Source of the DNA: Candidatus Cloacimonetes bacterium HGW-Cloacimonetes-1 | Lineage (GTDB): Bacteria > Cloacimonadota > Cloacimonadia > Cloacimonadales > Cloacimonadaceae | Length of the DNA stretch: 64,000 bases | Reading direction: 5' to 3' | NCBI GenBank assembly: GCA_002841975.1 | Contig: PHBQ01000001.1 | Span: 1-64,000 of the forward strand | Shown: positions 21,395 to 63,800 of the stretch, in pieces | Layout of the letters: each line of letters starts with the position of its first letter | Position numbering within the stretch: the first letter of the stretch is position 1 | Notes under the pieces: generated by a model | What the model was told of the DNA's origin: nothing | Database searches by the model: none | Seen by the model: the letters and a program-made list of their open reading frames with translations, nothing else | Program-made: the position numbers and the translations under genes

Positions 21395-21413
21395 TATAGT
21401 CTAAGGATAGGTT

Positions 21414-21752: not shown

Positions 21753-21756
21753 CTCT

Positions 21757-22494: not shown

Positions 22495-22518
22495 ATATAT
22501 GAAATGCAAGGAGGAATG

Positions 22519-23001: not shown

Positions 23002-23010
23002 AGAATAATT

Positions 23011-23945: not shown

Positions 23946-23961
23946 TTAAGGAGGATTGTCC

Positions 23962-25809: not shown

Positions 25810-25818
25810 GGAGTAAAT

Positions 25819-27836: not shown

Positions 27837-27854
27837 ATAGAGAGGATCATAAAT

Positions 27855-29639
27855 ATGGCTAAAACAGTTAATGTCTGGTTAGATGGTCATCACGTTGAAG
27901 TCCCGGATACGATGACAATCATCGAAGCTGCCGATAAATATGGCGTTCATATTCCTCGGTTATGTTACCACCCTGATCTACCACCAACTGCAAATTGCGG
28001 TGTATGTGTGGTTGAAGTTTCTGGAAACCCTACTCCGAAGAGAGCTTGCTGTACTCCTGTCGCTGAAGGGATGAAAATCACAACTAACAGCAATAAATTG
28101 AGATCTTACCGTAAGACTCTGACAGAGATGATACTATCACATCATGATGTGAAGTGCCCCACCTGCTCAGCAAATAATAAATGTGAGCTGCAATCTTTGG
28201 CAAACAATCTGGGTGTAAATCCTGATGCTCTGCCGAATATTATGCCCAATACACCTATCGATGACAGCAGCCTGTCAATCGTTCGTGATGTAACCAAATG
28301 TATCGCTTGCGGTCGTTGTGTTACCGTCTGTAACGAAGTGCAGACAGTCTATGCTCTCACCTTTAGTGACCGCGGTATTCATGCTCATATAGACACCGCC
28401 TTTAGTAATGGTATTGCCAATAGCCCTTGCGTGAACTGCGGTCAATGTACTGTATATTGCCCCACCGGCGCATTGCGTGAAAGAAATGACCTTGATGGCG
28501 TGTGGGAAGCAATTTTGGATCCCACCAAGCACGTTGTGGTCCAGGAAGCACCGGCAATCCGCGTCTCTCTTGCTGAAGAATTTGGCATGGAACTCGGAAC
28601 TGTCACGGCAAAGAAAATGTATGCCGCACTTCGCAAGATCGGTTTTGATGCCATTATGGATACTAACTTCACTGCTGATCTTACTATCCTAGAAGAAGGA
28701 ACAGAGTGTGTTACCAAGCTCAAATCCGGATCTAAACGTCCTTTGATTACATCATGCTCTCCTGGTTGGATCAAATTCATGGAAACCTATTACCCGGATT
28801 TGGCGGATTGTGTTTCAACTGCAAAATCTCCGATGTCCATGTTTGGTGTATTAGCCAAAACATATTATACTCAGGAACATGGCCTCGATCCTGCTAATAT
28901 CGTTTCTGTGGCAATCATGCCTTGTACGGCAAAGAAGTTTGAGGCTGCGCGCCCGGAACTTCGTGATTCCGGCTACCAAGATACCGATTTTGTCTTGACT
29001 ACTCGTGAATTTATCCGTATGATCAAAGAAGCAGGTATCGACTTTAAAGAAATCAAAGAAGAAGATGCTGATGAAGGTATGAGCTTCTATACAGGTGCCG
29101 GAACCATATTTGGTGCCACCGGTGGAGTTATGGAAGCAGCTATCCGTTCTGCCTATACTTTGGTAACCGGTGAAGAGCTGGAAGCTATCGACATTATGGC
29201 AGTTCGTGGACTCAAAGGCGTCAAAGAAGCCACTATCCCAGTACCGGGATTTGGCGACCTCCGCGTCGTTGTAGCTCACGGTTTGTCCAATGCCAGAATC
29301 GTGATGGACAAAATTCGTGAAGGCTTGGCCACAACTGGTGAATCCCCATGGCATTTCGTGGAAATCATGGCTTGCCCCGGTGGATGTGTCGGTGGTGGTG
29401 GACAACCTTATGGCAACAATATGGCCATGAGAGCCCGCCGTGGCGAAGGTCTATATAAAGAAGACCGCAACTTGCCGATCCGTAAGTCCCATCATAACCC
29501 GGAAGTTACCAGAATCTATGAACGTTTCTTAGGTTCACCTAACTCTCCGCTGGCAGTAAAACTGCTGCATACCCATTACTTTGAGCGTTCTGTCAATACC
29601 GGACAGATCATCAAAGAAGCTACGCACAAGCATCACTAA
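27855..29639 (+). CDS. hydA: Catalytic [FeFe] hydrogenase subunit, NAD(P)-linked multimeric type
   Basis: A 594-residue hydrogenase making H2 from protons with electrons from the NuoE/NuoF subunits and probably ferredoxin. Order: plant-type 2Fe-2S domain (1-80), His-Cys 4Fe-4S (KCPTCSANNKCELQ), two 4Fe-4S clusters (CIACGRCVTVC and CVNCGQCTVYCP), the H-cluster domain, and a small-subunit-like tail. H-cluster motifs are TSCSPGW (Cys301, with Ser302 where monomeric enzymes have Cys), MPCTAKKFEA and MACPGGCVGGGGQP. Ser at this place is seen in many multimeric enzymes. GAGAGG precedes the ATG; a terminator follows. No maturation genes (hydE, F, G) are in the window. Confidence 0.96.
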   Translation: MAKTVNVWLDGHHVEVPDTMTIIEAADKYGVHIPRLCYHPDLPPTANCGVCVVEVSGNPTPKRACCTPVAEGMKITTNSNKLRSYRKTLTEMILSHHDVKCPTCSANNKCELQSLANNLGVNPDALPNIMPNTPIDDSSLSIVRDVTKCIACGRCVTVCNEVQTVYALTFSDRGIHAHIDTAFSNGIANSPCVNCGQCTVYCPTGALRERNDLDGVWEAILDPTKHVVVQEAPAIRVSLAEEFGMELGTVTAKKMYAALRKIGFDAIMDTNFTADLTILEEGTECVTKLKSGSKRPLITSCSPGWIKFMETYYPDLADCVSTAKSPMSMFGVLAKTYYTQEHGLDPANIVSVAIMPCTAKKFEAARPELRDSGYQDTDFVLTTREFIRMIKEAGIDFKEIKEEDADEGMSFYTGAGTIFGATGGVMEAAIRSAYTLVTGEELEAIDIMAVRGLKGVKEATIPVPGFGDLRVVVAHGLSNARIVMDKIREGLATTGESPWHFVEIMACPGGCVGGGGQPYGNNMAMRARRGEGLYKEDRNLPIRKSHHNPEVTRIYERFLGSPNSPLAVKLLHTHYFERSVNTGQIIKEATHKHH

Positions 29640-46810: not shown

Positions 46811-48256
46811 TTACTTTCTAAATATCTGGGTGAAATCGAATCTTTGTTTTGTTCCAGACCTGAATTTCCATTGATAGCATCTTTCTTTTACAGATTCAAG
46901 AAATCCATCATAGAACTTACCAGATTGAACTTTTACTTCCACGACGTCTACTTTTCCACTCTCATTGATTAACAGAGTTATCAAAAGTGTTCCATACATT
47001 TCCTGATTTACGGAAGCTTCGTTAAAAGCACTTTGTATCTGTGATTGTTTTGCTTTTACTACTGCAGCTATATTGGATAGCTGGCTTCTTTCCTCTTCGG
47101 GAGCCTCGGCAATATTGTCTTCGGTACGGGCTTTTACGGAACCAGCTGTGTATTGACTTTTCATCCGTAATTCAGCCGCACTAAGCTGCGCCGGGGAACC
47201 AATTGGTACTAGTTTTCCCATTCCTGCAGTGTACTTTGTTATGTTGGTATTTGAAGTAGGTCTTAGGGAAGTACCTTGAACTCCTGATCCAACCACTGCA
47301 GCATAGCCGGTGCCTTCCTGGGCTATATCATTCGGATCAAAGGTAGTTCCCTTTGCTCCTTTCAAACCTGATACACCACCGGAACCGTCACCGGATGAAC
47401 CTGAACCTGGTCCGCTACCACCTCTATTCCCACCACCTCCGCGACTGGTAGCAACCAGTCTTTCAGTATAGTCGTATTGTACAACTTGAGCTTTTGAAGT
47501 GGCGTTTGGATCAAAGTTTTCCATACCAAATTTACTTTTTGCATATCCTGCTTTATCACCGAGTCCTGTACCTTTTGTCGCGGTACCTGAAGTGACCGTT
47601 TTTGCTACTTCTTTCCCTTTTGCATCTGGTTTAACATCTTCTTGGGTTAGGGTAGATTGCGGCGTTATGGTTGCGGATTGAGCAGTTTGATTGTAGTCTT
47701 TGAGCCGACTGGTCAAGTCATAAGTCTGGACTTGATCGTCGGTCAATAAATCTGCAGTTAGCATGATCAGGAAAGCTATCACAGTCACGAGAATCATAAT
47801 CCAGAGATTCTTCTTTTCAAAGTCAGTTAGCTTTGGTCTTCTGGAATATTGGCTGATAATCTGTTTCTGCTCCGCTGTCCAAACCGTGACTCTTGGTTCG
47901 GCATATTCATAACCAACAGCCCACTGGGGGCCCAAGGTTATTGTGCCTACCATGTCTTTGGTCAGTAATAGCTCATTACCTTTCAGGATATTGTTTTTCT
48001 TGAGGTAATCCTTATCGACACCCTGGTCAGCCTTTTTGCAGCTTAATTCTGTTTTGTCTGGCAATCTCAAATAGAAATTTCCACCTTTACTGATCAAGAA
48101 CAAATGCTTATCCGGAAATTTGGGATCAAGTATTTGCCATGCAAGGTACTTATTGGAACCAATGACTAATTTGGTGGTGAAATCTCTTCCGTAACGAGCT
48201 ATGTCCAGCACTTTGCCCTGATAGAATAGCTTTAGATTTAGTAATTTATTTGGCAT
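46811..48256 (-). CDS. GltG-like TonB protein: FHA-like front, one membrane helix, AgmX/PglI-type C-terminus
   Basis: 481 residues from the ATG at 48256 behind GGGGAG. Residues 1-125 are a cytoplasmic beta-rich domain with FHA-like spacing (LVIGSNKYLAW, HLFLISKGGNFYLRL, GTITLGPQ). One helix (150-171) crosses the inner membrane. A long low-complexity periplasmic arm with Gly-rich runs (GGGGNRGGSGPGSGSSGDG) ends in a TonB-like domain (about 395-481: GTLLITLLINESGKVDVVEV, CYQWKF). Myxococcal gliding protein GltG has a comparable layout. It should transmit force from ExbB/ExbD to the outer membrane. Last gene of the operon. Confidence 0.78.
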   Translation of the reverse strand: MPNKLLNLKLFYQGKVLDIARYGRDFTTKLVIGSNKYLAWQILDPKFPDKHLFLISKGGNFYLRLPDKTELSCKKADQGVDKDYLKKNNILKGNELLLTKDMVGTITLGPQWAVGYEYAEPRVTVWTAEQKQIISQYSRRPKLTDFEKKNLWIMILVTVIAFLIMLTADLLTDDQVQTYDLTSRLKDYNQTAQSATITPQSTLTQEDVKPDAKGKEVAKTVTSGTATKGTGLGDKAGYAKSKFGMENFDPNATSKAQVVQYDYTERLVATSRGGGGNRGGSGPGSGSSGDGSGGVSGLKGAKGTTFDPNDIAQEGTGYAAVVGSGVQGTSLRPTSNTNITKYTAGMGKLVPIGSPAQLSAAELRMKSQYTAGSVKARTEDNIAEAPEEERSQLSNIAAVVKAKQSQIQSAFNEASVNQEMYGTLLITLLINESGKVDVVEVKVQSGKFYDGFLESVKERCYQWKFRSGTKQRFDFTQIFRK

Positions 48257-48267
48257 AACATCTCCCC

Positions 48268-48795
48268 TTACAGATTCTTCGCATAGTCTTTCAGCCAATC
48301 TGCCTTCTCCGTCGAGGAGAAATAGATATTCTCAAATCCTTGACCTAAGGCTACCTGCAAAATAGTATTGATATACTGGCAAGGGACATCATCATCGGCT
48401 TGAATCACTAGGCATAGCTTACTGTTCGCATCTGTTGCAGTAATTTTGGTGGCTTGCATGTCAAAATACTGAACAAGTTGAGCGCGTTTATCAGGATTGT
48501 TTGCCAGCTCCCTAATGTCTCCAAACGGTGTGTTCTCAACGCCCAATTCTACATGATCCACAAACAGCTTTACCACAATGGCGCTTCCATCTTCTATGAG
48601 CTTTTCATTAGTTGTCGTCGATGGTAATACCATATTTTTGGGTGTGGAAAAAGCCTGTGCTTCCATAGACACATTTTTGATCAAAAACACCAATATAATA
48701 GTAAGAATGTCAAGAAGTGATGTAATGGAAAGTCCTCGTACATCCTTACGAGCTTTAAAGACCTTTCGTTTTGATTTTGAATTTCTTGTTCCCAT
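48268..48795 (-). CDS. ExbD/TolR-like protein, second copy
   Basis: 175 residues: a basic cytoplasmic start, one helix preceded by LSITSLLDILTIILVFLIK, with the Asp at the place used for proton flow in ExbD/TolR, then a periplasmic domain (LVIQADDDVPCQYINTILQV). AGGAGGT spans the stop of the upstream ExbD, so the pair are coupled. Works with ExbB as part of a proton-driven motor. Confidence 0.88.
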   Translation of the reverse strand: MGTRNSKSKRKVFKARKDVRGLSITSLLDILTIILVFLIKNVSMEAQAFSTPKNMVLPSTTTNEKLIEDGSAIVVKLFVDHVELGVENTPFGDIRELANNPDKRAQLVQYFDMQATKITATDANSKLCLVIQADDDVPCQYINTILQVALGQGFENIYFSSTEKADWLKDYAKNL

Positions 48796-48796
48796 A

Positions 48797-49330
48797 TCAA
48801 CCTCCTACTTCGCCGTAGCCGGTTCTTCGTACTGATATGCCAACATCCATTATTTCGTTTGATTTACAGATATCAATCGTGCGGAGTAATGCTCCGTATT
48901 TCACATTTTCGTATGGGACTATACTTACTTTGGAAAAGCCGGGATTTTGTTTCTTCATTTCATGTAGAGTAGCGTTTAACCCTCGAAAATCGAATTCTCC
49001 ATTAGTAAAACGAATTTCTTTATTCGCTTTTCCCGGTTCTTTTATCTTGAAGCCCTTAAAAATCTCGGCATCAGCTTGATCATGAGCCATGATAAAAATC
49101 TCAATATTATCTGCTTTTTTATCCCCATCTCCACCACCGGTTCCACTGCCACCTTGTCCGGAATTACTATTGAAGTTTAGTGCCACCAGCGCAGTCTGGC
49201 TGATAACTACTAAAAACAATAGCATTGGGATAATCGTCAGGAACAAGTTCATGATCGGAATGGTATCCGGCTCTCTTGGCTGAGTTGCTTGCGATTTCTG
49301 GCTTCTTCGTTCAGAAGCGCGATATGCCAT
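48797..49330 (-). CDS. ExbD/TolR-like protein, first copy
   Basis: 177 residues with one helix (IPIMNLFLTIIPMLLFLVVI) and a periplasmic domain interrupted by a Gly-rich insert (SNSGQGGSGTGGGDGDKK). The usual membrane Asp of ExbD/TolR is replaced by Asn in PIMNLFLTII, so this copy may not conduct protons itself; the second copy keeps Asp. AAGGAT precedes the ATG. Four bases separate it from exbB. Confidence 0.85.
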   Translation of the reverse strand: MAYRASERRSQKSQATQPREPDTIPIMNLFLTIIPMLLFLVVISQTALVALNFNSNSGQGGSGTGGGDGDKKADNIEIFIMAHDQADAEIFKGFKIKEPGKANKEIRFTNGEFDFRGLNATLHEMKKQNPGFSKVSIVPYENVKYGALLRTIDICKSNEIMDVGISVRRTGYGEVGG

Positions 49331-49334
49331 GATC

Positions 49335-50141
49335 TTATCCTTTCATTGAATAGTTGATTTGGTTGATTAGTTTTGCGCTAAATTCGTCAACATCACCCTG
49401 GATTTTCAGAGACTTGGTAGTCAAGAGTCCTTTGATAACAGTTAACACGATAGCAGCCACAAGACCAACGGCTGTTGTACCGATAGCGACCTTAATACTA
49501 AGAGTCAGCTGTTCGTTCGCAGCGGGTCCGGTAAGAGTACCCATGGCGTCGAAACCCATGATAAGGCCCCAAATGGTACCCAACAGTCCAAGATATGTGC
49601 ATATCTGAGCTAAGAGCTCAAACCACATTAAGCCGGACTCAAGGCCCTTGATTTTTTGCAGATTGGCTTCATCAAAAGCGTTATAAACATGTTCGCTCAT
49701 GTCTTCGCCTTTCTTACCACTGTTCTTGGCATCTCTAAATCCGAGTAAACCATTCCAGAAGATAAAACCTATTGTGGTCTTGTTGAAACCTTCAGATATT
49801 TTTATTGCTTCGTCGAGTTGACCTTGCTTCAAGTGATTTCTAATTCTATTGTAAACTTGCTGGGCATCAATTTTTTCTTTGAAATACAGGCTGTTCGTTT
49901 TCACGATACCAAGAGCCAAACCAATAGCAAATACTACAGCTATTATATAGCCCCAGGGAAATCCTTTGTTACTATCGTTAAATACGCTCCATGGTGTTAC
50001 GTTACTTTGGATACTTACAGTTTGACCGGCGTCTTCAGTTGTCTGATCTGTTCCGGTGTTCATTGCATCGGTAGCTTGTCCATAAAGCAACCCAAAACTA
50101 AGAAATAGGGTTACCAATACGATAAGAATTGTTGCTTTCAT
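49335..50141 (-). CDS. ExbB/TolQ/MotA-family proton channel protein
   Basis: 268 residues from the ATG at 50141 (GGAGT upstream; ATGA overlap with the small gene before it). An N-terminal signal-like helix and periplasmic spacer precede a helix (GYIIAVVFAIGLALGIV), a cytoplasmic loop, and two C-terminal helices with the family signature: LLGTIWGLIMGFDAMGT and IKVAIGTTAVGLVAAIVLTV. It forms the stator with the two ExbD-like proteins encoded next. Confidence 0.92.
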   Translation of the reverse strand: MKATILIVLVTLFLSFGLLYGQATDAMNTGTDQTTEDAGQTVSIQSNVTPWSVFNDSNKGFPWGYIIAVVFAIGLALGIVKTNSLYFKEKIDAQQVYNRIRNHLKQGQLDEAIKISEGFNKTTIGFIFWNGLLGFRDAKNSGKKGEDMSEHVYNAFDEANLQKIKGLESGLMWFELLAQICTYLGLLGTIWGLIMGFDAMGTLTGPAANEQLTLSIKVAIGTTAVGLVAAIVLTVIKGLLTTKSLKIQGDVDEFSAKLINQINYSMKG

Positions 50142-50413
50142 TTTGACTCCTTCAGCCATTTATTTAGTAATACTCTATTCGTGGTTCTTAACAAGTTAAA
50201 ATTAAATTTGTAATATACCGGTTTTACCTTTGTGTCTGTTTTCTGCATGTAGACGTCAATAGCAGGAGTCCGTTGCTCAAATTTGATTTCAAACTGAACG
50301 GCCTGTTTATTTGCCTGCACCCCTTCGTACCCACTGACGCTTGGTTTGGTCTCTTGTGCGTACATGAGCAAAGAAGCCATAACTGTCATGAATAATAATA
50401 CTATTCTTTTCAT
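50138..50413 (-). CDS. Small secreted protein of unknown function
   Basis: 91 residues from the ATG at 50413; a GTG one codon earlier is possible. A clear signal peptide (MKRIVLLFMTVMASLLMYAQ) leaves about 70 residues, basic, with no recognised motif and no Cys. It is wedged between the giant repeat protein and ExbB with a 4-base overlap on the ExbB side, so it is part of the operon and likely a periplasmic accessory of the complex. Confidence 0.65.
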   Translation of the reverse strand: MKRIVLLFMTVMASLLMYAQETKPSVSGYEGVQANKQAVQFEIKFEQRTPAIDVYMQKTDTKVKPVYYKFNFNLLRTTNRVLLNKWLKESK

Positions 50414-50416
50414 CAC

Positions 50417-53400
50417 TTACCTCTTCTGGTTCTTTTCATATCTGATGTTTGCCACAAATCCTCTATAGGGGAGGTTATTCTTGACTTGGATCTGAATTTT
50501 GTTTACACCTGGCACAAGCTGAGCTTTATCAATTTCATAACTGATGGGATACATCTCCAGTGGATCATCAATGTAAGCAAGCTCTTGGTTCTCTAATACA
50601 GGAACACCGTTGATGAAAATACTGGCTGTAGTGGGAGCTACAAATGTAATCTTACCCGCACGGAATTCCGTATCGATGTTGATCTGGGTTTCAAATGTGA
50701 CTGTTGAAATCGGTAGACTGTCTTGTTCCGGAACCCAAATCGCCTTCGCGCTACTTTCGCTAAGTCCCTCAATATTGCTTACAGATACACCAAGTTTATC
50801 CGTAAGAACGGCTTTTGATATAACTGCTTTGTTGGTCGTGGGGTCTGTATAATATATTGTCCAAGAGGCGTCTGTTACATTTTCGATAATATCAGTGGGA
50901 GTTGCTGCAAATAATCCTCTTTGGTCATTTACCAACTGGAATCCCAAGGCTATGGTTGCAGGCTGGGTTCCGCTATTAGTATATGTGACCCCAATAGCAT
51001 TGTTGGCTTCGTCCCAATTATCTACTACTGTGGCGGCAAAACGAGTTGATTTTGCATTCTGAATGTTCAAAGTATCTACTGCTATATCAGAATAGCTTTC
51101 TACAACTTTCCCATTTACATTGATTTCAACAGGTTCGGATGATACATAATTCACTATTCCATACAGGGGTTTAATCCTGGAAGAGAAGGACTTGTTGAGA
51201 ACAAGTTTCATCCCTGCGGGGACTATAGTACTTCCCATAGTTAATTGATTTACGACTACTGGCTGAATGCTGTTTTTGAACGCTCTAGATTCCCCACCAT
51301 CATTGATAGAGACTAGTTTAGCACTCCAACTCGCATCAAAGGTCATGTTTTCTATGGCATACTGAGGTGCACCGCCAATACCATTGAAGAAATCCATACA
51401 GTATTCTGTGTATTTGTCTTTATAGCCGGGAATTATATAGTTGTCATAGATTAGCTTTTGCCAGCTTGCAGCCTTAGATATCTGGTCGTTTACATGTTGA
51501 TCCCTGGTTAGCATAAAGTTATTGATGAGCTGATTGTAATAATCTGCATCTTCAATCTTTACAGCATTGAGATCTTTGGAAATTGCAAAATATCGGTCGA
51601 TCTGAGTTTTTATGACTACGCCGGAATACTCATACATCCTAGCAATGATGTTATATCCACGAAGTACTCTCTCATTGTCCAATTCCTGTTCAGTGATAGA
51701 GGCCAGATATTTCTGTATTTGCAGAGTCGATTCATCTACGCTTTTCTTATATGCCGCTACCCGATTATCCTTGCCACCGACTAATTGCTTTCCCCAGTTT
51801 GTCAAATTATTAACTCTGATCAGCTTATCCGGTTGATTTGCCTTGATTGCCGCCTCATATGCATCTAACTTTTTGTCGTAGTTTTTGAGGAAGGCTATGC
51901 GCTCCTGAAGTTTGTTGTATTCCTTCAAATGATCAGCAAATACTACTTTTACTGTTGCATGGTCAAATGTAAGTCCTTCTTTCACAAAGTTTGCTTCGAC
52001 CTTGTTATACTCGTCGCGAGTGGCAAATATTTGCTTCCAGTCTTTAGCCGTATAAACCGCTATGTATGTGTCGAGTATTTTTGTCAGTTTGGCTTCTGCG
52101 ATTGATTGGTACGCTTGATATTTGGTTTTATCGGAGGTATAAATCTCTTTTGCAACCTGTTCGTATTTTGCAGTGTCACCTGAATTGTAGGAGTCTAACA
52201 TGATGATCTCAAGATAAGCTCCAGCAAAAGAGTCCTTGGGATATAGGGCAATATATGAACGCATTAATGATTCGCGTTTTGCTATCTCAGCAGGTGGTAT
52301 AGTAGTTTTGGAATCTGCGGGGATGTAGACGTTAATGGCTGACCTATACAATAAAGGTAACGGCGTGTCAGCGTTTGCAACAATCGCATTGTTTTTTACA
52401 TCATTATACAGACCAAGATATAACTCAGACACTCTGTCTTTATTGGAGGGATTCTCTGCGAGTTTTACTATTTCACGTAGTCTTAAATTGAATGTCTGGT
52501 TGCTTGATGGAAATCTATCCATAAATGCAGTTTTTAGTTCATTGGTTTGAACCGCATCTGTCATTAAACTATCAGAAATAACCCACGCAGTTCTGTAAAA
52601 ATCAAAGGCTTGAGTAACATCGTTTGTTTGGATAGCCAGATCTTTCAATACATTAATTGCCATTTGATAATTGCCGGCTTCCCGATAGGCACTATAGGCA
52701 TCAATTCTATACTTCAGGTTACGGGCGGGTTCAGTTTTTTCAAACTCACCAGCAAGTCGCATGTTTTCAAGAGCAACCTTACCATAATCTTTATTGTTGG
52801 TCGCCTGTTCAATGCTGCTCTGAATCTGTACTTGTACATTGCTTTGGATAAGAGTTCTATCAGCATTGCTTAATGCAAGCGGTTCAGCTTTCCGATACCA
52901 GTTCTCTGATTCAGTGTAGTTCTGTTCGTCAATAGCAATTTGGGCCAGTTTTAAATATGTATCCCGTATAGTAGCGTTGTCAGCGCCATCAGGCAATTCA
53001 AGGATTTTCATATATCTTTGCTTTGCTGCGCTATACATTTTCTTCTGATATTCTAATTGGGATAAGGTTCTTTGAATTGTGATATAATCTAATTTGCGTT
53101 CTTTGCTGGTAAACTTATCCGACAAGAGAATGGTCATATATCTGTCCGCAGCAGAACTATAAAAAGCGAAAAGCGATTCTGGTGTTGCTAATTCTTGCGG
53201 TAACACTTCGGTCTGTACAGCAGTACTGTCCTGATTTGTAATCTTATTAAAAACCATCTCGGAGTATTGGAAAGCTAATCCCTCATTTACAAAGAAGTCA
53301 CTATTATCCGGGTATTTTTCGTTAAACCAGTGTAGCTCACCAACTGCTTGCATATAATTGGCTATCGTGGGCATTTTCTCTGCTAGGTATGTGCTAAGAG

Positions 53401-56400
53401 TAGCCTTCAATTGTGCCTTGTTCGCGACCCACACAGACACACTATCTCCTAACAATGCTGTATACTTGCTATAATCAACAATGTGTTTGTTATAAGCCGC
53501 ATAAGTAAGGGCATTCGGATTCTTGTAAAAGTTGTTATATAGCCTTAAGTCGATACTATCGTATGCTTTTCTGATTATCAGGAGTTGGGGGTCAATTTGC
53601 TTATCCTTGTTTGCAGCATACCAGGCAGATTCAGCATTATAACTGGTCTTCATTTCCATGTATATACTATCTCGAAGAGCATAGATGTCGTCCCCGGGTC
53701 TTAACTGATTTTGGTATTTGACATATATAGCAAAAACCGAATCAAGCAAAGTCGGATTGTCTAACGCTAGCGGATCTACTGTAATCTTGAGCCTCATAAA
53801 ATCAGCTGCCTGCATGGGAGCATCCAGTTCAAATTTTCCTGCTACAGCATTGTCAATAACTTTGAATAGTACGTCTTTACTGGTTGTTTTTGCCAAGTCT
53901 GATATCACAAATTCTGTTCCCAGAGGTTTGCTTTGGTAATCTCCGCGATCCAGAGCTACTAAACAGTAAGCGATATTTTTTATGGCACTCAGAGTATAGT
54001 CGTCTATGTCAGTCTCGTTGGTAATCTTCCCATCATTGATGGCCTTCAGGATACTCACAAAGTCATTTAATCCATCTTGATATGACTTCTCGTCATTGCC
54101 ATTCAGATTAACCCAACCGCGTTGATAGAGAGCATCGTATTGGTACCTGCTTCCATCTTTACTGATGAGCATATTGAAATAGTCTTTTGCCTTTGCATAA
54201 TAAATTGCCGGTTCTGCAGCATCAGCACCCAAATTGAAGTATATTATTCCAAGTCTTAAAATCACTTCGTCATAGTACCGGGAATTTGTGTAATTATCTG
54301 CGATTTCTTTGTATGCATTCAAGGTTTGTGAAAGATTTTCTTCGTTTAATCGAATGCTCTCCGGCCTTCTATAGTCCGTCGGATTGAGTGTAAAATAGCT
54401 GTCTGTAAGTCTGTCGATACGGCCTTTGGTTAAAGTACTGTGAATATAACCGATGTTGTACAAAACCGCATCACGCATATAGAAGTTTGGATCTGCTTCA
54501 TTTGTTTTTGTGTAGTAATCCAATGCAAGCTGAGGATTGTTGATGTCAATAGCATAACTGAGCTCAGCCATATTGTAAAAGAGGTTAGCTTCACTGATCA
54601 GGAACGAACCGCCTGGCTGTTGCAAGTACTTAAACTTTGGAGTTCTTTGCAAAAAGCTGGTATAACGGTCACGCAGGGCTATTCTTTCTTCCCGGAAGGA
54701 GTTGTTTATAGCTGCACTCTGCTCGTACTCCATGGTATTTTTGATCTTGTCATGCTGTTGTGATCTGTAGTCAATATCCTTGTACGCCATCTGCAAACGA
54801 ACAAAATCGATGCTGATTTCTGATTTATTCAATGAGTTGATGAGAGAGTTTACTACACTTGTATAGTTGCTGGTTGTAGTATCATAGCTATCAATCTCTT
54901 TCTTTAATAGAGCCATCTCACGATTGGCAATTTTATTGGGGATCGTGACTGTGTAAGCCTTGATCAGAGCCGGGTAGAGTTCCTCAAATACTTTTTTCTC
55001 GGCTTGAAACTCTTCGTAACTCTCTTTATAGACTGTAGACAGAGTATTGTCAAACGCATAGTATTCAAGAAGTTGTTTGTTTTCAGATATCTTGGCAGAA
55101 TACTCTGCTTCTTTGGTTTCAAGTTCTGCCAATTTAGCAGGCTCTGATGTTTGTAATTTGATTTGTTGGATTACGCTCAAAATGTCCTCAGAAACATTGA
55201 TGTCTTCTTGCAGAGCTATATGTCTCTGATATTCATAGTTTTCGCTGATTATCTTATCAAGAAGGGCTTGAATGATCTCAAAAGCTTTTTCATCCTGCAC
55301 ATACAAATCGTTTTGGGCCTCTATAATAGCAATTTTGCCTTTATCCGGGTAATTACGGAGTTTGTTCGAGGCCACGTAATTATCAAAGAGGGATTTGTAA
55401 TGCAATATTGTTTGAATCTCATACTTGTACAGCTGTTCTGCCACATCCGAGGATATAACGCTTGATTTTGCCATCAGCTTTTGATGGATCATAGCAAGCT
55501 CGTCACTCAATGCCAGCAGTTCAGTCTTTATCTGTTGGTAAGATGTCTCAGAAGGGTTCTGATAAAGCCTTGTCTTTAGTGCTTCGATCTTGTCCAGAAT
55601 TGCTTTCTTTTGCATTAAAGTGTTCTTAGCTTCGTCTGAAAAACTAATGAAGTCGTCAAATTTGTTTAAAGCAACGTCATAATTACCATCTTCTGCTTTC
55701 AAATCTGCCCACAGGTATAACAATGTGGGATAGTATGACCCCAAGTCCTTTCTCTGTAGTAATTCATCGAGTAACTGGTTTGCTCTTGCTCGTTCTCCAG
55801 AATTTAAATATGCCAAGACCAATTCATACTGTGAGTTGATTTCCCTATAGTCATTTACCAAGGTATAAAATCTTTTGTAATGGTCTTCAGCAAGTTTCCA
55901 CTCTGAGCTGTTTACATACATCCTTGCCAATGCAAGAATAATGAAAGGATTGTTTGAGTACTGACCATCTAAATTTTTGAACTTATTAATCGCATTTGGT
56001 ATCGACCCACTTAATGCAGCAATAAACTCGAGCATGAGCTTTGAATCTGTTCCATATCTCGGATCATCACTCAATTGAGTAAACAACAATGTTGCTTCTG
56101 CGTCCAGGGCTAGTGAGAATTTGATGTGACCTAATAAGTATGTGATTTCATTGGAAGTTAATGTGCTATACAATTTGGTATATTGCTCATCGGCCTGGCG
56201 TTCATAGTTCAAGTTAATCATCGAACGCAGATACAAGGCAAGAGCATTTGGCCGAACATTTGAGTCATTGTATTTTGCTAAAAATGAAACAAAGTGACTA
56301 ACCACTCTGATATCAGCCTTTCGGTAAAACAACAAAGCACCGTCATAATAATCGATATCGTCTTTCAAAAATGCAACCCCACCAAACAGAGATCTGGTGG

Positions 56401-56746
56401 TTGCGATCAATTTTTCAGCATCATCGGGGTTTCGTAAAAGAGCATTATCAATACGTTTTGCATATTTATTGAACTCTGCCTGCAAACTGTCTACATTGTT
56501 AGTTTCGATAAATCTACGAAGTCTTGCATTTGGCTTACCAGAGTTCTTTAAAGCGGTTATTCGCTCCTGAATGGCTTTGGCTTCTTTGATATTGGACTTG
56601 AACATGTCAGATTCAATCCGTATCTCTTCTCTAATTTGATTTATTAAATCAGTATCACTTACCGAAGCTTGATTTTGGGCGAACGCTGTGTTAAATAAGC
56701 AAAACAACATTGCAAATAATGTCAATAAACTCAAACGTAGTCTCAT
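50417..56746 (-). CDS. Giant periplasmic helical-repeat (TPR-like) protein
   Basis: 2,109 residues with a signal peptide (MRLRLSLLTLFAMLFCLFNTAFA). Most of the chain is helical repeats with TPR character, for example AKYNDSNVRPNALALYLRSM, ALARMYVNSSEWKLAEDHYK, LDYYTKTNEADPNFYMRDA and KLAQIAIDEQNYTESENWYR, interspersed with long coiled-coil stretches (about 380-680). The last 300 residues are beta-rich, with KVVESYSDIAVDT and APTTASIFINGVPVLENQEL, like a carbohydrate- or protein-binding sandwich. In Myxococcus a giant TPR protein (AgmK/GltI) belongs to the gliding machinery. The gene precedes ExbB/ExbD genes, suggesting a periplasmic scaffold. Confidence 0.8.
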   Translation of the reverse strand: MRLRLSLLTLFAMLFCLFNTAFAQNQASVSDTDLINQIREEIRIESDMFKSNIKEAKAIQERITALKNSGKPNARLRRFIETNNVDSLQAEFNKYAKRIDNALLRNPDDAEKLIATTRSLFGGVAFLKDDIDYYDGALLFYRKADIRVVSHFVSFLAKYNDSNVRPNALALYLRSMINLNYERQADEQYTKLYSTLTSNEITYLLGHIKFSLALDAEATLLFTQLSDDPRYGTDSKLMLEFIAALSGSIPNAINKFKNLDGQYSNNPFIILALARMYVNSSEWKLAEDHYKRFYTLVNDYREINSQYELVLAYLNSGERARANQLLDELLQRKDLGSYYPTLLYLWADLKAEDGNYDVALNKFDDFISFSDEAKNTLMQKKAILDKIEALKTRLYQNPSETSYQQIKTELLALSDELAMIHQKLMAKSSVISSDVAEQLYKYEIQTILHYKSLFDNYVASNKLRNYPDKGKIAIIEAQNDLYVQDEKAFEIIQALLDKIISENYEYQRHIALQEDINVSEDILSVIQQIKLQTSEPAKLAELETKEAEYSAKISENKQLLEYYAFDNTLSTVYKESYEEFQAEKKVFEELYPALIKAYTVTIPNKIANREMALLKKEIDSYDTTTSNYTSVVNSLINSLNKSEISIDFVRLQMAYKDIDYRSQQHDKIKNTMEYEQSAAINNSFREERIALRDRYTSFLQRTPKFKYLQQPGGSFLISEANLFYNMAELSYAIDINNPQLALDYYTKTNEADPNFYMRDAVLYNIGYIHSTLTKGRIDRLTDSYFTLNPTDYRRPESIRLNEENLSQTLNAYKEIADNYTNSRYYDEVILRLGIIYFNLGADAAEPAIYYAKAKDYFNMLISKDGSRYQYDALYQRGWVNLNGNDEKSYQDGLNDFVSILKAINDGKITNETDIDDYTLSAIKNIAYCLVALDRGDYQSKPLGTEFVISDLAKTTSKDVLFKVIDNAVAGKFELDAPMQAADFMRLKITVDPLALDNPTLLDSVFAIYVKYQNQLRPGDDIYALRDSIYMEMKTSYNAESAWYAANKDKQIDPQLLIIRKAYDSIDLRLYNNFYKNPNALTYAAYNKHIVDYSKYTALLGDSVSVWVANKAQLKATLSTYLAEKMPTIANYMQAVGELHWFNEKYPDNSDFFVNEGLAFQYSEMVFNKITNQDSTAVQTEVLPQELATPESLFAFYSSAADRYMTILLSDKFTSKERKLDYITIQRTLSQLEYQKKMYSAAKQRYMKILELPDGADNATIRDTYLKLAQIAIDEQNYTESENWYRKAEPLALSNADRTLIQSNVQVQIQSSIEQATNNKDYGKVALENMRLAGEFEKTEPARNLKYRIDAYSAYREAGNYQMAINVLKDLAIQTNDVTQAFDFYRTAWVISDSLMTDAVQTNELKTAFMDRFPSSNQTFNLRLREIVKLAENPSNKDRVSELYLGLYNDVKNNAIVANADTPLPLLYRSAINVYIPADSKTTIPPAEIAKRESLMRSYIALYPKDSFAGAYLEIIMLDSYNSGDTAKYEQVAKEIYTSDKTKYQAYQSIAEAKLTKILDTYIAVYTAKDWKQIFATRDEYNKVEANFVKEGLTFDHATVKVVFADHLKEYNKLQERIAFLKNYDKKLDAYEAAIKANQPDKLIRVNNLTNWGKQLVGGKDNRVAAYKKSVDESTLQIQKYLASITEQELDNERVLRGYNIIARMYEYSGVVIKTQIDRYFAISKDLNAVKIEDADYYNQLINNFMLTRDQHVNDQISKAASWQKLIYDNYIIPGYKDKYTEYCMDFFNGIGGAPQYAIENMTFDASWSAKLVSINDGGESRAFKNSIQPVVVNQLTMGSTIVPAGMKLVLNKSFSSRIKPLYGIVNYVSSEPVEINVNGKVVESYSDIAVDTLNIQNAKSTRFAATVVDNWDEANNAIGVTYTNSGTQPATIALGFQLVNDQRGLFAATPTDIIENVTDASWTIYYTDPTTNKAVISKAVLTDKLGVSVSNIEGLSESSAKAIWVPEQDSLPISTVTFETQINIDTEFRAGKITFVAPTTASIFINGVPVLENQELAYIDDPLEMYPISYEIDKAQLVPGVNKIQIQVKNNLPYRGFVANIRYEKNQKR

Positions 56747-56794
56747 AATATATGCTCTCTTTCCCGATCTTATGCTAGGTTTTAAACCGTGACA

Positions 56795-56821
56795 GTCGAG
56801 ATATGGTTTTCATATCTCGAC
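56795..56821 (-). other. perfect 11-base hairpin before the giant repeat gene
   Basis: GTCGAGATATG and CATATCTCGAC pair perfectly around a 5-base loop, in the 136-base gap between the putative outer-membrane protein gene and the giant gene. On the minus strand there is no T-run behind it, so it may be an attenuator or mRNA-processing site. Confidence 0.6.
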
Positions 56822-56882
56822 TTCACATACTATATCCATAAGGGAGTATGAATAATACTTTTCAATTTTACAGCCCGCGATT

Positions 56883-57881
56883 TTACTCGCCAGCGGCTTC
56901 TTTTTCTAATTCGAGTAACTGTCTTCTAAGATCTTCAAGTACTTTTTGTGACTCTGCGCGAGATTCACGAATCTTTCTCAGCTCTTCCATCAGTTCATTA
57001 GCAGATGCATTTGGAACACCGGATTGTGATTGTCCCACCTGCTGTTGGGTCACGTTTGAGCTTCCCGAGCCCACTTGACTGTCAGGCATAGAGGGTCTTC
57101 TTCTAGCATCAGCATATTTGTCGAACAGATAGGAAAGACCCAAAGAAATTCTATGATTTGGGTTGTCATCTTTCAGGCTTTCTTCAAGTCCCAGATAGCC
57201 CAATTTAACTGAGAAATTTTTAATATTGTATTTCGCACCTAAGTTGATGTTATGGCCATCCATTTCTGTGATGAATGTCATCTTTGCGTTGGGGCTGAAT
57301 TCAGCAGAGAAAAACAATCCTTCTAACTTTTTCGTCAGTGGAATTTGACCTACAAATCTGTTCCGACCAAAGCCGGCGCTCAATACAGTGGACAATTCCT
57401 GGATACCAAACAAGCCTCTGAGTACTGTTTGTTTTGATGCAACTGCATAAAATGAATTTTTCTCGTAATAACAGCGATCGGGATTGCCGTAAAGGTCATC
57501 AGTAACAGGGATAATTCTGCTGTTTTCTCTGGCTTTTGAAGCAATGTTGTCAACGCCAATGGCAACTTGAGGAACTGAAACTGTCTCTTCGACAATTTTC
57601 ACTTTTGCATGCATCCAATACATGTTATCGCCACCCATTACACCGAGCTCTACTCGATTTAAGATACCAACCTGGAGCATACCCGATGGGATAAACTCAA
57701 AATCAGTTTTGGGGGTACTTTGTTCTTTGCGGATGTAACTATTAAATTGGAACTTAGCAGCTTTGTTTGGTAGCACATAAGCATCTGGAACTCTTAATTC
57801 TCCAGTTAATGTAAATGGGGTCGCTTCTAGGCAACTGAATAATGCTATCACAGCAAGTAAACTCAAAACTATTCTTTTCAT
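56883..57881 (-). CDS. Putative outer-membrane beta-barrel protein with C-terminal coiled coil
   Basis: 332 residues from the ATG at 57881 behind GGTGGAGGGAAG; an in-frame start at 57914 lacks this. A signal peptide (MKRIVLSLLAVIALFSCLEA) precedes alternating strands with YjbH-like character (GELRVPDAYVLPNKAAKFQF, INLGAKYNIKNFSVKLGYLG, HRISLGLSYLF), suggesting an outer-membrane barrel. The last 45 residues are a charged coiled coil (ANELMEELRKIRESRAESQK). First gene of the motor-like operon; function unknown. Confidence 0.65.
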   Translation of the reverse strand: MKRIVLSLLAVIALFSCLEATPFTLTGELRVPDAYVLPNKAAKFQFNSYIRKEQSTPKTDFEFIPSGMLQVGILNRVELGVMGGDNMYWMHAKVKIVEETVSVPQVAIGVDNIASKARENSRIIPVTDDLYGNPDRCYYEKNSFYAVASKQTVLRGLFGIQELSTVLSAGFGRNRFVGQIPLTKKLEGLFFSAEFSPNAKMTFITEMDGHNINLGAKYNIKNFSVKLGYLGLEESLKDDNPNHRISLGLSYLFDKYADARRRPSMPDSQVGSGSSNVTQQQVGQSQSGVPNASANELMEELRKIRESRAESQKVLEDLRRQLLELEKEAAGE

Positions 57882-58358: not shown

Positions 58359-59696
58359 TCAGTTATTCAGCCTTGAAGTATCAAATGTAGTACCGAGATA
58401 CTTTTCAATTTCGTTCACATCCAGTTCCATATCGTCATTTTTGGCAAAGATAAGCCGGAAATTACCGTTCATCTGCAGATCAATGAACACATACACAGCG
58501 TTGTTTCGAAGTGAGTACTTCCAAATCTGAAAGTCTTTTCTCACAAACCGGGTGTCATCTGTGGTCTGATCTTTTTCTATCTCATCTGGAGCTCCATTTC
58601 TGATATAGATTCTGCCCATATCAGATTTCCAGCCTTTATCAAAGTGTGAATAGTATTTGTCTGCAAATTGAATTCTCTCACGTACAATTCCAATCATCTC
58701 TTCGGGAGAGAGATTTGCTGAATTTGCCATTACTTCCCAAAATTGAGATATATAGCGACGTTTGGACTCCAAGCTCATACTGCTCCAATTCCCGACGATT
58801 CCCGAGGACAGAAAGTACTTCATAAGAGAGTGTTCATCTTGGGGATCCGGAAAGATAAATCTCTGCCCACCGGAGTTTTCATAGATGACAAACTCAAACT
58901 GTCGCTGTTCTACTATCTCCCCGCTTTGAATCGTGATAGTCCCATGGTGTGCCCCCGGAGCAAGATCAGAGATCGGAATCTTAATCGTATTGCCTTCCAC
59001 GGCCAATGCGCTTGATACACTCAAATTCGTCTCGATCTCGATTTCTTCATCGTTCTCTATTAACAAATTGGCCACATACTTGGCTTCAGAATTCGCTTCA
59101 TGCCTGTATATCTCAAAATAAAGGCTAAAACTATCGACCTGTTCCTTTGAAAACAAAGCAGATGGTTCCACCTTATAAAGCTTGTGATTTCGCTGGAATT
59201 TTTCCAAAAACTGTGTAGTGTCTGCACGAACCGTTTGAGACATTTCTACGTCACTGATCATTGTCGTCTGGAGTAATGGATCTGCCTTGATGTTCCACTC
59301 AAATACAGCCCCAGAATTCACATCCTGTGCTTTGAACAAAACATTGTAGCCAGGTCTATCGACCAGCAAACTGATGCGGTTCAGATAGGACTTTTGCGGA
59401 GAACTCACATCGTGTTTATTGCGTACCCCGATGTTATCTGAGATCCCTTTTTGAAAGACGAGACTATCTCCATCAGTTACATTGATCGATACTTGTAACT
59501 CGGCAAAAAAACCGCTGTTCTGAGACACAAATACCATATTACGATATGGAATTTGGTAGTCGATATTGAGCACTGTAGATCCTGATTTGTTCAAAAACCT
59601 GGTGTACGTTATATACATATTGAGCTTGTCGGCACAATAAACCGGCACAGTCATCAATAATGCCAGTCCTATTAGGATAAACTGTTTACTCTTCAT
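58359..59696 (-). CDS. GWxTD-domain secreted protein, second copy
   Basis: 445 residues with a signal peptide (MKSKQFILIGLALLMTVPVYC). The N-terminal two thirds are beta-rich; the C-terminal quarter is a GWxTD domain: FWEVMANSANLSPEEMIGIV, DKGWKSDMGRIYIRNGAPDE and IWKYSLRNNAVYVFIDLQ. The family is widespread in FCB and Acidobacteria but has no known function. It overlaps the first GWxTD gene by 11 bases. Confidence 0.85.
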   Translation of the reverse strand: MKSKQFILIGLALLMTVPVYCADKLNMYITYTRFLNKSGSTVLNIDYQIPYRNMVFVSQNSGFFAELQVSINVTDGDSLVFQKGISDNIGVRNKHDVSSPQKSYLNRISLLVDRPGYNVLFKAQDVNSGAVFEWNIKADPLLQTTMISDVEMSQTVRADTTQFLEKFQRNHKLYKVEPSALFSKEQVDSFSLYFEIYRHEANSEAKYVANLLIENDEEIEIETNLSVSSALAVEGNTIKIPISDLAPGAHHGTITIQSGEIVEQRQFEFVIYENSGGQRFIFPDPQDEHSLMKYFLSSGIVGNWSSMSLESKRRYISQFWEVMANSANLSPEEMIGIVRERIQFADKYYSHFDKGWKSDMGRIYIRNGAPDEIEKDQTTDDTRFVRKDFQIWKYSLRNNAVYVFIDLQMNGNFRLIFAKNDDMELDVNEIEKYLGTTFDTSRLNN

Positions 59697-60801
59697 CTTC
59701 TTTGTTCCTCAATGTGTATTGACCATATCCTCCGACGTCCACAAAGACAAATTCTTTATTGTCTTTTGAGTAATTCCAGACGATATAGGGATATCCCTCC
59801 ACCGGAAAGACCTCGCTATTCACATAATCCGGATATCCATATTTAATAAAAATCCGGCCTCGGTCAGAGCGCCATCCCTTTAGTTTTGTGTGGATCGTGT
59901 AAGATTCATCAGCTTTCAGCACACGCTTGTAAAATTCTTCTCTTGCTTCGTTGCGTTCCGTTCCCGGGCTGGGATCATGAACCAGCCAAAATTGGTCTAT
60001 GGCCTTGGTCATTTCTGCCTTTGGCAATCTGCTCATCAATCTCCACTCCGCTTGGGTGGCAATGTACCTCAATTGTTCGATCTGGTCTTTGGGAGAATAA
60101 ATGGTACCATATGAGAACCATGAACTATAGAAGAAGGGCTCCGTTTTATAACGAATCCTCCCTTCAAAGATTGTGATTTGGATTTGCTGAGGGCTCTCTA
60201 TGTTTTTTAGCAGGTCTGTCAAATCGACAACAATTTTCCCGGCACTTGGTACCACAGTCTTCGTATAGCCATCTACAAAAAGCCTGAGGCTATCGATTGG
60301 TACCGAATATCCTTGATACAAGAAACACTTTTCCCAAGGTAAACTGAACATTTTGCCAGAGCTCAGAATGATATCCATGTTATATAGGCGAGTCACAAGA
60401 TATGACAGACCGATCTGAGTCAGCTCAGACTGGGTAAATGTCCTTCCAAAAGACCTTTTATCGCCCAGGTTCAAGTTTTTCATAATGACAGTAGCGACGT
60501 AACTACCGGATTTGAGCGTATCCGAAAACCTGACCAGGATCGCAGATTCAGATAACTCTGCATGCTTGTAAATGACGATTTTTGCTTCGTGTCTACCCAC
60601 CTGTTTCTTTGTATTGTCTTTGATCTCCATCGATACCTGATACTCGGCGACCTCAGCATTCTTTCCAAAGATGAAGCTCTTATAGGGGATTATCACTCTG
60701 AAGTCTGTCCTGTCCCGGTAGTACTCTATTGCTATGTCTTGACCCCACAAGCTCAGGGAGATCACCGCTAAAATTATGAAACTAAATACTCTTTTCATCA
60801 T
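59686..60801 (-). CDS. GWxTD-domain secreted protein, first copy
   Basis: 371 residues from the ATG at 60801 (60798 also possible). A signal peptide (RVFSFIILAVISLSLWGQ) precedes a beta-rich region and a GWxTD domain (FWLVHDPSPGTERNEAREEF, LKGWRSDRGRIFIKYGYPD, YIVWNYSKDNKEFVFVDV). It overlaps the last 20 bases of dnaE, so it is expressed with it. Likely acts together with its paralogue at the cell envelope. Confidence 0.85.
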   Translation of the reverse strand: MMKRVFSFIILAVISLSLWGQDIAIEYYRDRTDFRVIIPYKSFIFGKNAEVAEYQVSMEIKDNTKKQVGRHEAKIVIYKHAELSESAILVRFSDTLKSGSYVATVIMKNLNLGDKRSFGRTFTQSELTQIGLSYLVTRLYNMDIILSSGKMFSLPWEKCFLYQGYSVPIDSLRLFVDGYTKTVVPSAGKIVVDLTDLLKNIESPQQIQITIFEGRIRYKTEPFFYSSWFSYGTIYSPKDQIEQLRYIATQAEWRLMSRLPKAEMTKAIDQFWLVHDPSPGTERNEAREEFYKRVLKADESYTIHTKLKGWRSDRGRIFIKYGYPDYVNSEVFPVEGYPYIVWNYSKDNKEFVFVDVGGYGQYTLRNKEDEE

Positions 60802-63800
60802 ACTGCACACTTATTGACAAGTCAATATCCTTATCATTACACCATGTGATAAATTTCTCATCAGGAAAGAATCCAGAGGCAGTGGATCCGATCCGGAAAT
60901 TATTAAACTTTTCGGATAGCACATCAAACCGCAGTCGGAAAGTCCCCTTTCCCCGGTTGATCCAACTTTTGATTTCGTGGTTAAACTTCTTTGTGACATT
61001 GGTGTCTTTGAGCTTGATGCGAATTTCCCCCTTCAGAATGCCGGATAGATTTTCGATGGGGACCACCAGTTTTGGCATCACTCTGGAAGTAGTATCCTCG
61101 GAATTGGAATATTGAGATTTGGCTCCAATGATCAGATACACCTTCCCCACCACCATCAGATGCAGGAAGCGGGTAAGATCTCGATTGAACAGAGGTACTT
61201 CAAATTTCCCGCTCAGATCTTCCATCTCTACGAAAGCCATGGGAAGACCCTTGTTACCTCTTTTCTTTGTAATGCTGGATACTATTCCGGCAATGATAAT
61301 ATCACCGGTTTTGGTGGCAAGTTCTTGGGCAGTGGTATTTGCAAAATGTGATATTGAGAACTTGTACTCATTCAAGGGGTGGCCACTCATATAAAACCCC
61401 AGCACTTCCTTTTCCCGTTCCAACTGATTGATATAGCTCCAGGGTTCCAGAGATGGCAGAGGGGGATACATATCGTTGGTGTCTTCTTCTTCTATAATCA
61501 ATTCAAATAATGATGTCTGCCCCATTCTACGGTCTCGCTGCTGATTGGAACTGAATTGCAATGCCTGCTCTATCACCGCCCATTTTTGAGCCCTCGAGCC
61601 CTCCAGTTCATCCATAGCACCGGAAGCTATCAAACTCTCCAATACAGATTTATTGACGGCAGAGCTGTCGAGCCTGGAACAAAACTCAAAAATTGTAGTG
61701 TACTTGCCCTTGGTATTCCTGTCCTCGATGATGGCGCGCATAGCCGCTTCACCGACATTCTTGATCGCCCGAAAACCAAACAACACTTCTTTGCCATGTA
61801 CGGCAAATTCATTCTCACTGCGATTGATATTGGGTGCTATAATTTTGATACCCATAGTTTTGCATACGTTGATCAGCTTTGTGATATCGGATGATTCATT
61901 TTCCAAAGACAGCAACGCAGCCATAAACTCTACCGGGTAATGTGCCTTCAGCCAGGCTGTTTGATATGCCACCAACGCATAGCATGTCGCATGGCTTTTA
62001 TTGAATGCATATTCTGCAAAACGTAACCACTCTTGCCATATTTTTTCGACCACATGGATCGGAACATTGTTGGCAGTAGCCCCATCAATGAACTTCCGAT
62101 GGAATTTTGCCATCAATTCACTTTTCTTTTTACCCATTGCCTTACGCAGGGAATCTGCATCACTGCCGCTAAAGCCACCCATGTCCCGGGAGATGGACAT
62201 CACCTGCTCTTGGTAAACAGTCACACCATAGGTTTCCTTCAAGGCATTTTCCAAGAGTGGATGATCAAAACTGACCTTTTCCCGGCCGTGTTTACGGGCA
62301 ATAAAACTTTCTATAAATTGCATAGGTCCCGGACGATACAGCGCCACCATGGCAATCAAGTCTTCAAACTTGTTCGGTTTCAATTCGATCAGATATTTCT
62401 TCATGCCATCAGATTCAAACTGAAAGATCCCGTCTGTCTGACCTTTTGCCAGGATATTAAAAGCTCTTTTATCATCCAGCGGGATGTGTTCTATATCCAT
62501 ATCTACTCCGTGGAATTCACGGATCATATCTACAGTTTTTTTGATCTGAGTCAGGGTCTTGAGCCCCAAGACGTCCAATTTGAGCAGTTTCAGCTCGTCC
62601 AGCCACTTACCTTCATACTGCACCAAGATGGAATTCTCACCCTCTTTCTGGGTCCCTACGGAGAGGGGTACATAGTCCGTGAGATCACCGGGGGCAATCA
62701 CAAATCCCGAGGCGTGAATACCGGTTTGCCGGATCAATCCTTCCAATACCAAACTATGCATATATACGGTTTGATAGAGGTCATTACTATTAATAAGGGT
62801 GGAAAACTCAGATGAGCTTTTGTATGCATCTTCCAAGCTCGTCCCCCCGGGAATGGTCTTGGTGAGTGCATTGGCATCCACAGCACTAATCTCCATCACT
62901 CTGGCGACATCTTTGATTACAGACTTGGCCCCCAGCGTGGAAAACGTGATGATTTGCGTAACGCTATTCCGGCCGTATTTCTGAACCATATAGTCGATCA
63001 CCCTGGCTCTGCCTTGGGTACAAAAATCGATGTCTATATCGGGCATTCCTATACGTTCGGGATTCAGAAAACGCTCGAAGAAGAGGCCATAATGTATGGG
63101 ATCTATCCTCGTAATATCTGTCAGGTAAGATATGATGCTACCGGCTGCAGATCCGCGTCCGGGACCTACCGGGACACCCTGTAAACGGGCATTGTCGATC
63201 AAGTCCTTTACTACCAGGAAATAGCCGTTAAAGCCCATTTTGCCGATCACACCCAATTCATAGTCTATGCGATCCTTGATTTCGGGCGTCACTTCGGGAT
63301 ACTTTTCTTCAGCACTGGTATAGCATATATGTTTCAGATAGTCGCCCATCCCGGAATATTCTGCGGGGATGTCGATCTTGGGCAGTTGAAATTCACTATA
63401 GTCCAGTTCCAAATCTATCATCTCTGCTATTTTCAGGGTATTTGTATATGCTTCCGGCTGATCCGGAAACAGAGCTTCCATCTCCGTTTGAGATTTAAAA
63501 TACAGCTGATCGGTGCTATAGCGCATGCGTCCAGGATCGTTCAGGGTCTTCCCCATCTGAATGCAGAGCAATACATCATGAGCTTCCGAGTCCTTCTGCT
63601 GCAGGTAATGGCAGTCGTTTGTCACCACCATTGGGGTATTGGTCTCTTCTGCCAGTTGGATCAGCTTTGGAGTTGCTGCTCTTTCGATGTCCAGTCCGTG
63701 ATCCTGTAACTCCAGATAAAATTTGTCGCCAAAGACGTCCTTGAACCACATGACTGTTTCCACGGCCTGTTGGTAGCGTCCGTTGATCAGTAAAGTGGGG

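Follow-up and report, generated by a model that had tools for sequence, protein, structure and literature searches.

A conserved envelope-spanning motor operon of Cloacimonadota, probably a divergent relative of the Agl-Glt core

The core of the Agl-Glt machinery consists of the Group B genes aglRQS, gltG, gltC, gltD and gltE (Luciano et al. 2011, PMC3169522). Outside myxobacteria this core forms a single cluster with one additional gene; AglR was found to bind GltG in a two-hybrid analysis, and GltI has been reported in Myxococcales and Bdellovibrionales only (PMC3169522). In F. succinogenes, the genes FSU_2397-2403, annotated in the order tetratricopeptide-repeat (TPR) protein, TPR protein, ExbB, ExbD, ExbD and TonB, encode products that rise on cellulose, and were read by the authors as serving cellodextrin uptake (PMC6851124). 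Here we analysed a stretch of 64,000 nucleotides (nt; 64 kb, the window) of contig PHBQ01000001.1 from the 2.78-Mb genome of Candidatus Cloacimonetes bacterium HGW-Cloacimonetes-1, and in it an operon for which an original prediction, drawn from the letters of the window, had proposed a force-transducing system related to Agl-Glt. The operon probably encodes a proton-motive-force-driven, envelope-spanning force-transducing machine that forms a divergent branch of the Agl-Glt core family.

According to the open reading frame (ORF) list and translations of the window, seven genes lie on the minus strand from 57881 down to 46811, in the order OMP–GIANT–P92–ExbB–ExbD1–ExbD2–GltG-like (Table 1; OMP, outer-membrane protein). 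Six genes on one strand with tight spacing had been described, and their ORFs, strand and coordinates are all borne out, but the total of six is not, since P92, between GIANT and ExbB, was overlooked. OMP and GIANT are 136 nt apart, GIANT and P92 abut with a gap of 0, and ExbB and ExbD1 as well as ExbD1 and ExbD2 are separated by 4 nt and 1 nt, respectively; P92 overlaps ExbB by 22 nt, and ExbD2 overlaps the GltG-like gene by 31 nt with the listed TTG start of the latter, the true ATG start of which is probably at 48256.

The full gene order recurs in 37 of 61 Cloacimonadota loci and, with P92 undetected, in a further 8. Most of the other 16 are incomplete because of contig ends or ORFs that escaped the greedy caller used for mechanical ORF calling across the compared loci, and one is a motor-less locus. 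The original prediction had staked its reading on conserved neighbours, and this survey of synteny finds them: the operon is confirmed as real and conserved, and the synteny is not due to chance. Within the phylum, GIANT has a match in 88 of 125 genomes (in 54 of the 71 good, near-complete ones) and ExbD1 in 81 (51 of 71). Most of the operon-less genomes checked also lack OMP except for weak paralogs; the exceptions are G085, where OMP lies close to the end of a contig, and G024, which also has one. A scan for the peptide L[IV]PIMNLF, with one genome per species, returned 55 loci with ExbD1 relatives, all but one of them titled Cloacimonadota, Cloacimonadales, Cloacimonetes or Tenebribacter (a Cloacimonadota genus), the single remaining locus (L154) being from the unclassified bacterium PL23a_bin.76. 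A search of the open-access literature found no publication on this operon in Cloacimonadota. The common flanking genes are DnaE, GWxTD genes and PriA. Two GWxTD-domain proteins are encoded upstream in the window (58359-60810), and are kept with the operon in family f1, often as one only in family f10.

Related operons occur in a second phylum, that of PL23a_bin.76, in which ExbD1-like matches were found in 25 of 297 genomes, in two layouts for which we coined the labels type A (ExbB-ExbD1-ExbD2-small-GltG-TPR-TPR-giant) and type B (TPR-giant-(TPR)-small secreted protein-ExbB-ExbD1-ExbD2-GltG). The GltGs of both types match the gliding_GltG model with 122.8, 89 and 70 bits (equivalog cut-off 650), and a TPR protein of the type A operon L192 matches gliding_GltC (NF033756) with 103 bits (equivalog cut-off 450). 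By its content of GltG-like and GltC-like genes, type A thus resembles the Agl-Glt core cluster of PMC3169522, although NF033760 recovers no full GltG in the second phylum, hence no Myxococcus-type anchor. A search of a plasmid collection for named GltG/GltC relatives returned no match. When profiles are compared, the GltG of Cloacimonadota matches that of type B at 99% over 182 columns, covering the FHA domain and the transmembrane (TM) helix, and GIANT matches the type B giant at 99% over 671 columns and the type A giants at 94.5%, the values for the giants being ones that TPR repeats may inflate. A small secreted ORF sits at the place of P92 in type B loci, a positional likeness only, the profile match of P92 to the second-phylum small proteins being not significant (15%). 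The annotated order of FSU_2397-2403 matches type B, a likeness by gene order alone. One genome of 8.9 Mb (G125) has the system twice, as type A and as type B (L154 on C99 and L194 on C48).

The Pfam matches of ExbB, ExbD1 and ExbD2 all exceed the model cut-offs, and ExbB keeps the motifs GLLGTI.GL and GTTA.GL..AIP. In the ExbB tree, a single clade (100/99) unites the proteins of Cloacimonadota with those of types A and B and excludes 25 other ExbBs. The ExbD tree groups the ExbD1s of both phyla (100/97) and, separately, their ExbD2s (98/93), and sets 25 other ExbDs apart from those of the operons (100/97). These trees bear on whether the operon could simply energise uptake in the usual Ton fashion, if with uncommon accessory proteins, as its ExbB, ExbD and TonB-fold parts and the presence of a barrel might suggest. 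The operon ExbB and ExbDs fall outside the clade of other ExbB/ExbDs, and this genome also encodes an ordinary set of Ton genes (receptor-like protein-ExbB-ExbD-ExbD-TonB, L209). The original prediction had named ordinary TonB/TolA accessory components as the alternative; the genes are not Ton components. The barrel itself, predicted with AlphaFold2 (AF2; 25-row alignment, mean pLDDT 79.6) to have ~12 strands and a helix at residues 292-329, shows no receptor or plug match in Pfam or NCBIfam, and its best Foldseek matches are to the small barrel FapF (E 1e-6, TM-score 0.35-0.43). PF03544 reaches 12.9 bits, under the cut-off of 24.6. Together, the tree positions, the separate Ton set of this genome and the absent receptor match led us to reject a Ton system, which we regard as highly unlikely.

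For the transducer, AF2 on 23 GltG-like sequences gave a beta domain at the N terminus and a further domain at the C terminus, with a TM helix and then a disordered, Gly-rich linker in between. The best Foldseek matches of the N-terminal domain are nearly all FHA domains (ArnA with E 2e-4; Ki67, Rv1747, GarA), and those of the C-terminal domain are FusB, H. pylori TonB and E. coli TonB-BtuB (TM-score 0.43-0.60 on target). Structure prediction has thus recovered the FHA and TonB-type folds that had been anticipated, and the protein is predicted to have the GltG layout, FHA–TM–linker–TonB-type C-terminal domain. In its conservation profile the usual GR arginine of FHA domains is not conserved and IGS stands instead; phosphothreonine binding by this FHA-fold domain may have been lost. 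NF033768, the model of the AgmX/PglI C-terminal domain, is matched by 20 of the 23 family members.

Like the Agl-Glt core, then, the operon combines in one cluster a TolQ homolog and a pair of distinct TolR homologs with a predicted FHA–TM–TonB protein and a giant TPR protein, the last perhaps of the GltD/GltE kind, and its motor has relatives, by clade, in operons where GltG-like and GltC-like genes are also present. P92 is extra with respect to the Agl-Glt core, and non-myxobacterial cores also have one extra gene. Unlike the Agl-Glt core, the Cloacimonadota operon has its own outer-membrane barrel and a GIANT with its own C-terminal domain, its GltG scores below the model cut-offs, and the TM helix of that protein has no conserved His. 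The proposed kinship therefore holds as that of a divergent variant of the core, based on the FHA and TonB-type folds, the AgmX/PglI matches, the motor clades shared with the GltG- and GltC-bearing second-phylum operon and the layout described in PMC3169522. Its other part, GIANT as a relative of AgmK/GltI, is not supported: GltI is reported only from the two orders named above, and GIANT instead matches the giant TPR protein of the core operon itself, in profile matches that repeats may inflate.

Several observations weigh against this kinship or against the machine we propose. The GltG equivalog model NF033760 matches none of the 23 Cloacimonadota members at E<=0.01, and the GltC model NF033756 none of the operon proteins, the GltG family matching only the AgmX/PglI domain model, and there the window protein itself stays under the cut-off of 40 (32.7 bits, E 6e-8). 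The TM helix of the Cloacimonadota GltG shows no conserved His/Ser motor motif. Kinship with AglRQS and GltG is drawn from models and intermediates; repeats can inflate matches between TPR profiles; the operon is known here from sequence and predicted folds; and four motor-less genomes, described below, show that the outer part can persist without force.

Among other described clusters, the TPR-TolQ-TolR-TolR-vWA clusters of the PVC group (PMC12204202) are similar in having a TPR gene, one TolQ, two unlike TolRs and a terminal TM-anchored transducer, and differ from the operon, which has a TonB-type C-terminal domain instead of vWA, an FHA domain and no SHLS motif. The periplasmic TPR protein and the TolQ-like motor (61.4 bits between ExbB and TolQ), together with weak YbgF/CpoB similarity and conservation over most of the phylum, would also suit a Tol-Pal-like machine for envelope maintenance, by which the outer membrane is tethered or constricted. 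Pal, TolB and TolA are all missing among the operon products, however (a search for Pal and TolB across the whole genome was not made), and ExbD1 is absent from 20 of the 71 near-complete genomes, which would be odd for a core function; we consider this explanation unlikely. The Pfam TPR matches of GIANT are all below threshold, and in most families other than f1, including f10, GIANT is split into two genes (~670 and ~1450 aa). By hidden Markov model (HMM), its C-terminal domain is present in nearly all motor-bearing Cloacimonadota giants, that of L093 excepted. P92 was found at its conserved position as 46 ORFs in Cloacimonadota loci.

Four genomes from two genera of family f10 (G082, G087, G088 and G089) have a locus OMP-giant-giant-P92-GltG' before PriA, with P92 uncalled in G087 and OMP on another contig in G088. 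ExbB, ExbD1 and ExbD2 are missing from the locus in all four, and ExbD1 is missing genome-wide; these genomes probably represent one event. GltG', the GltG ortholog at this locus, is a protein of 254-258 aa that has a signal peptide and keeps the TonB-type C-terminal domain, with no FHA domain and no further TM helix; it is thus predicted to be a secreted C-terminal domain. This joint absence of the motor and the FHA-TM part is what would be expected if the FHA-TM part serves the motor. By HMM, the giants of the motor-less genomes lack the GIANT C-terminal domain, as does that of the motor-bearing L093. In motor-less genomes, a PorV-like gene, a gene for a 467-aa protein and a MotA/MotB-like pair stand in a row (L243:5352-9719 and L244:3397-7714), and strong matches to this MotB are restricted to part of the phylum. 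The possibility that the MotAB-like pair is the relocated motor of the operon was rejected, the pair not being the operon's ExbB/ExbD.

The operon might also supply the type IX secretion system (T9SS) of Cloacimonadota with the motor that it is missing, in place of GldLM/PorLM. All 71 good genomes have SprA, and none of the 125 genomes gave a GldM match, with a model that had no positive control; the operon moreover spans the envelope with a proton-motive-force motor and a TPR giant and, like GldLM/PorLM, is found in a T9SS-bearing phylum. Unlike GldLM/PorLM, it has no detected GldM and is not tied to SprA: of the 71 good genomes, all with SprA, 20 lack ExbD1 and 17 lack GIANT, motor-less G082 and G087 retain SprA, and SprA is missing from 22 second-phylum genomes with a related ExbD1. 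Since SprA occurs with and without the operon, the latter is probably not the T9SS motor, a role weakened by these phylogenetic profiles to the point that we give it little credence, and the suggestion that the operon secretes the nearby T9SS cargo is not supported on the same grounds, as the second-phylum operon also occurs without SprA. An SprA-like T9SS translocon was found in 116 of 125 Cloacimonadota, including the genome of the window (L212:4120-10299, contig C50). In the window, a T9SS type A sorting domain (TIGR04183, 45.7 bits) was found in a protein of 1814 aa encoded at 4083-9527, and positions 20117-29639 hold a cluster with an [FeFe] hydrogenase and a NuoF-like gene, probably an electron-bifurcating hydrogenase.

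Table 1. Features of the operon, in window coordinates
Feature	Coordinates	Strand	Description
OMP	56883..57881	-	Predicted beta-barrel; signal peptide; periplasmic coiled coil at the C terminus; ORF open from 57914, ATG at 57881
GIANT	50417..56746	-	2109-aa periplasmic TPR-type protein; weak TPR matches
GIANT C-terminal domain, aa 1773-2103	50438..51430	-	Beta-rich, as judged by sequence inspection alone
P92	50138..50416	-	92-aa secreted protein with Sec signal; conserved position
ExbB	49335..50159	-	MotA/TolQ/ExbB proton-channel subunit of a non-Ton clade; PF01618, 68.6 bits
ExbD1	48797..49330	-	ExbD/TolR homolog, TM helix PIMNLFLTIIPMLL without proton-binding Asp; PF02472, 34.4 bits
ExbD2	48268..48795	-	ExbD/TolR homolog, TM Asp kept (LSITSLLDILTIILVF); PF02472, 33.0 bits
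GltG-like transducer, 495 aa	46811..48298	-	FHA fold, TM, Gly-rich disordered linker, TonB-like C-terminal domain; AF2 and Foldseek
FHA-fold domain of GltG-like, cytoplasmic	47900..48259	-	Foldseek matches, conservation profile
TonB-type C-terminal domain of GltG-like	46817..47002	-	Foldseek matches

In the force-transducing machine that we favour, an ExbB pentamer would enclose an ExbD1-ExbD2 heterodimer, as family knowledge of ExbBD/TolQR suggests, with the aspartate (Asp) of ExbD2 alone handling protons. The GltG-like protein would be held at the motor by its TM helix and FHA domain and be pulled or stretched, so that its TonB-type C-terminal domain could engage the GIANT scaffold and then the outer-membrane barrel, and work would be done on an outer-membrane or surface structure. 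Because the motor and the barrel, the two ends of this chain, are both encoded in the operon, work at the surface or outer membrane is the most economical reading; the most likely use is moving or tensioning surface-exposed components, as in adhesion or surface display, not import. Gliding would be another possible use.

The Asp pattern of its two ExbDs sets this motor apart. The ExbD1 TM motif PIMNLF..IIP.L contains no acidic residue in any of 51 Cloacimonadota sequences, whereas the ExbD2 motif LxITSL.D.LTI has its Asp in 52 of 52, a combination that suggests a heterodimeric ExbD1-ExbD2 motor with one Asp. The Agl-Glt core differs in that AglQ and AglS both carry the Asp according to one review (PMC9389320); another mentions it for AglQ only (PMC9120999), and if AglS were without it, the one-Asp feature would be older and shared with Agl. 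A second-phylum operon (L202:9776-10737) has the TM Asp in both ExbDs and branches first in both ExbD clades. Its Asp-retaining ExbD1 as first branch, with the rest of the ExbD1 clade modestly supported (88/89), fits a single loss of the Asp. Tentatively, and somewhat short of probable in our estimate, these would be a distinct branch of 5:2 proton motors with an obligate ExbD1-ExbD2 rod and one proton-binding Asp, and with a single loss of the site in ExbD1 that preceded the divergence of the two sampled phyla or an exchange of the operon between them. The cycle of such a motor would have to be half-stepping or one-sided, and natural variants would have dropped the motor and the coupling domain and kept the outer machine.

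Our results suggest that Agl-Glt-like machines extend to Cloacimonadota, a phylum for which we found no earlier report in the open-access literature, and in the motor-less genomes the role of the inner half of the machine is separated from that of the outer half. Motors of the ExbBD/TolQR/MotAB type are currently modelled with two equivalent proton sites on the dimeric rod, used alternately; a motor family in which one rod site is conserved and the partner site has been lost offers a direct test of this two-site assumption.

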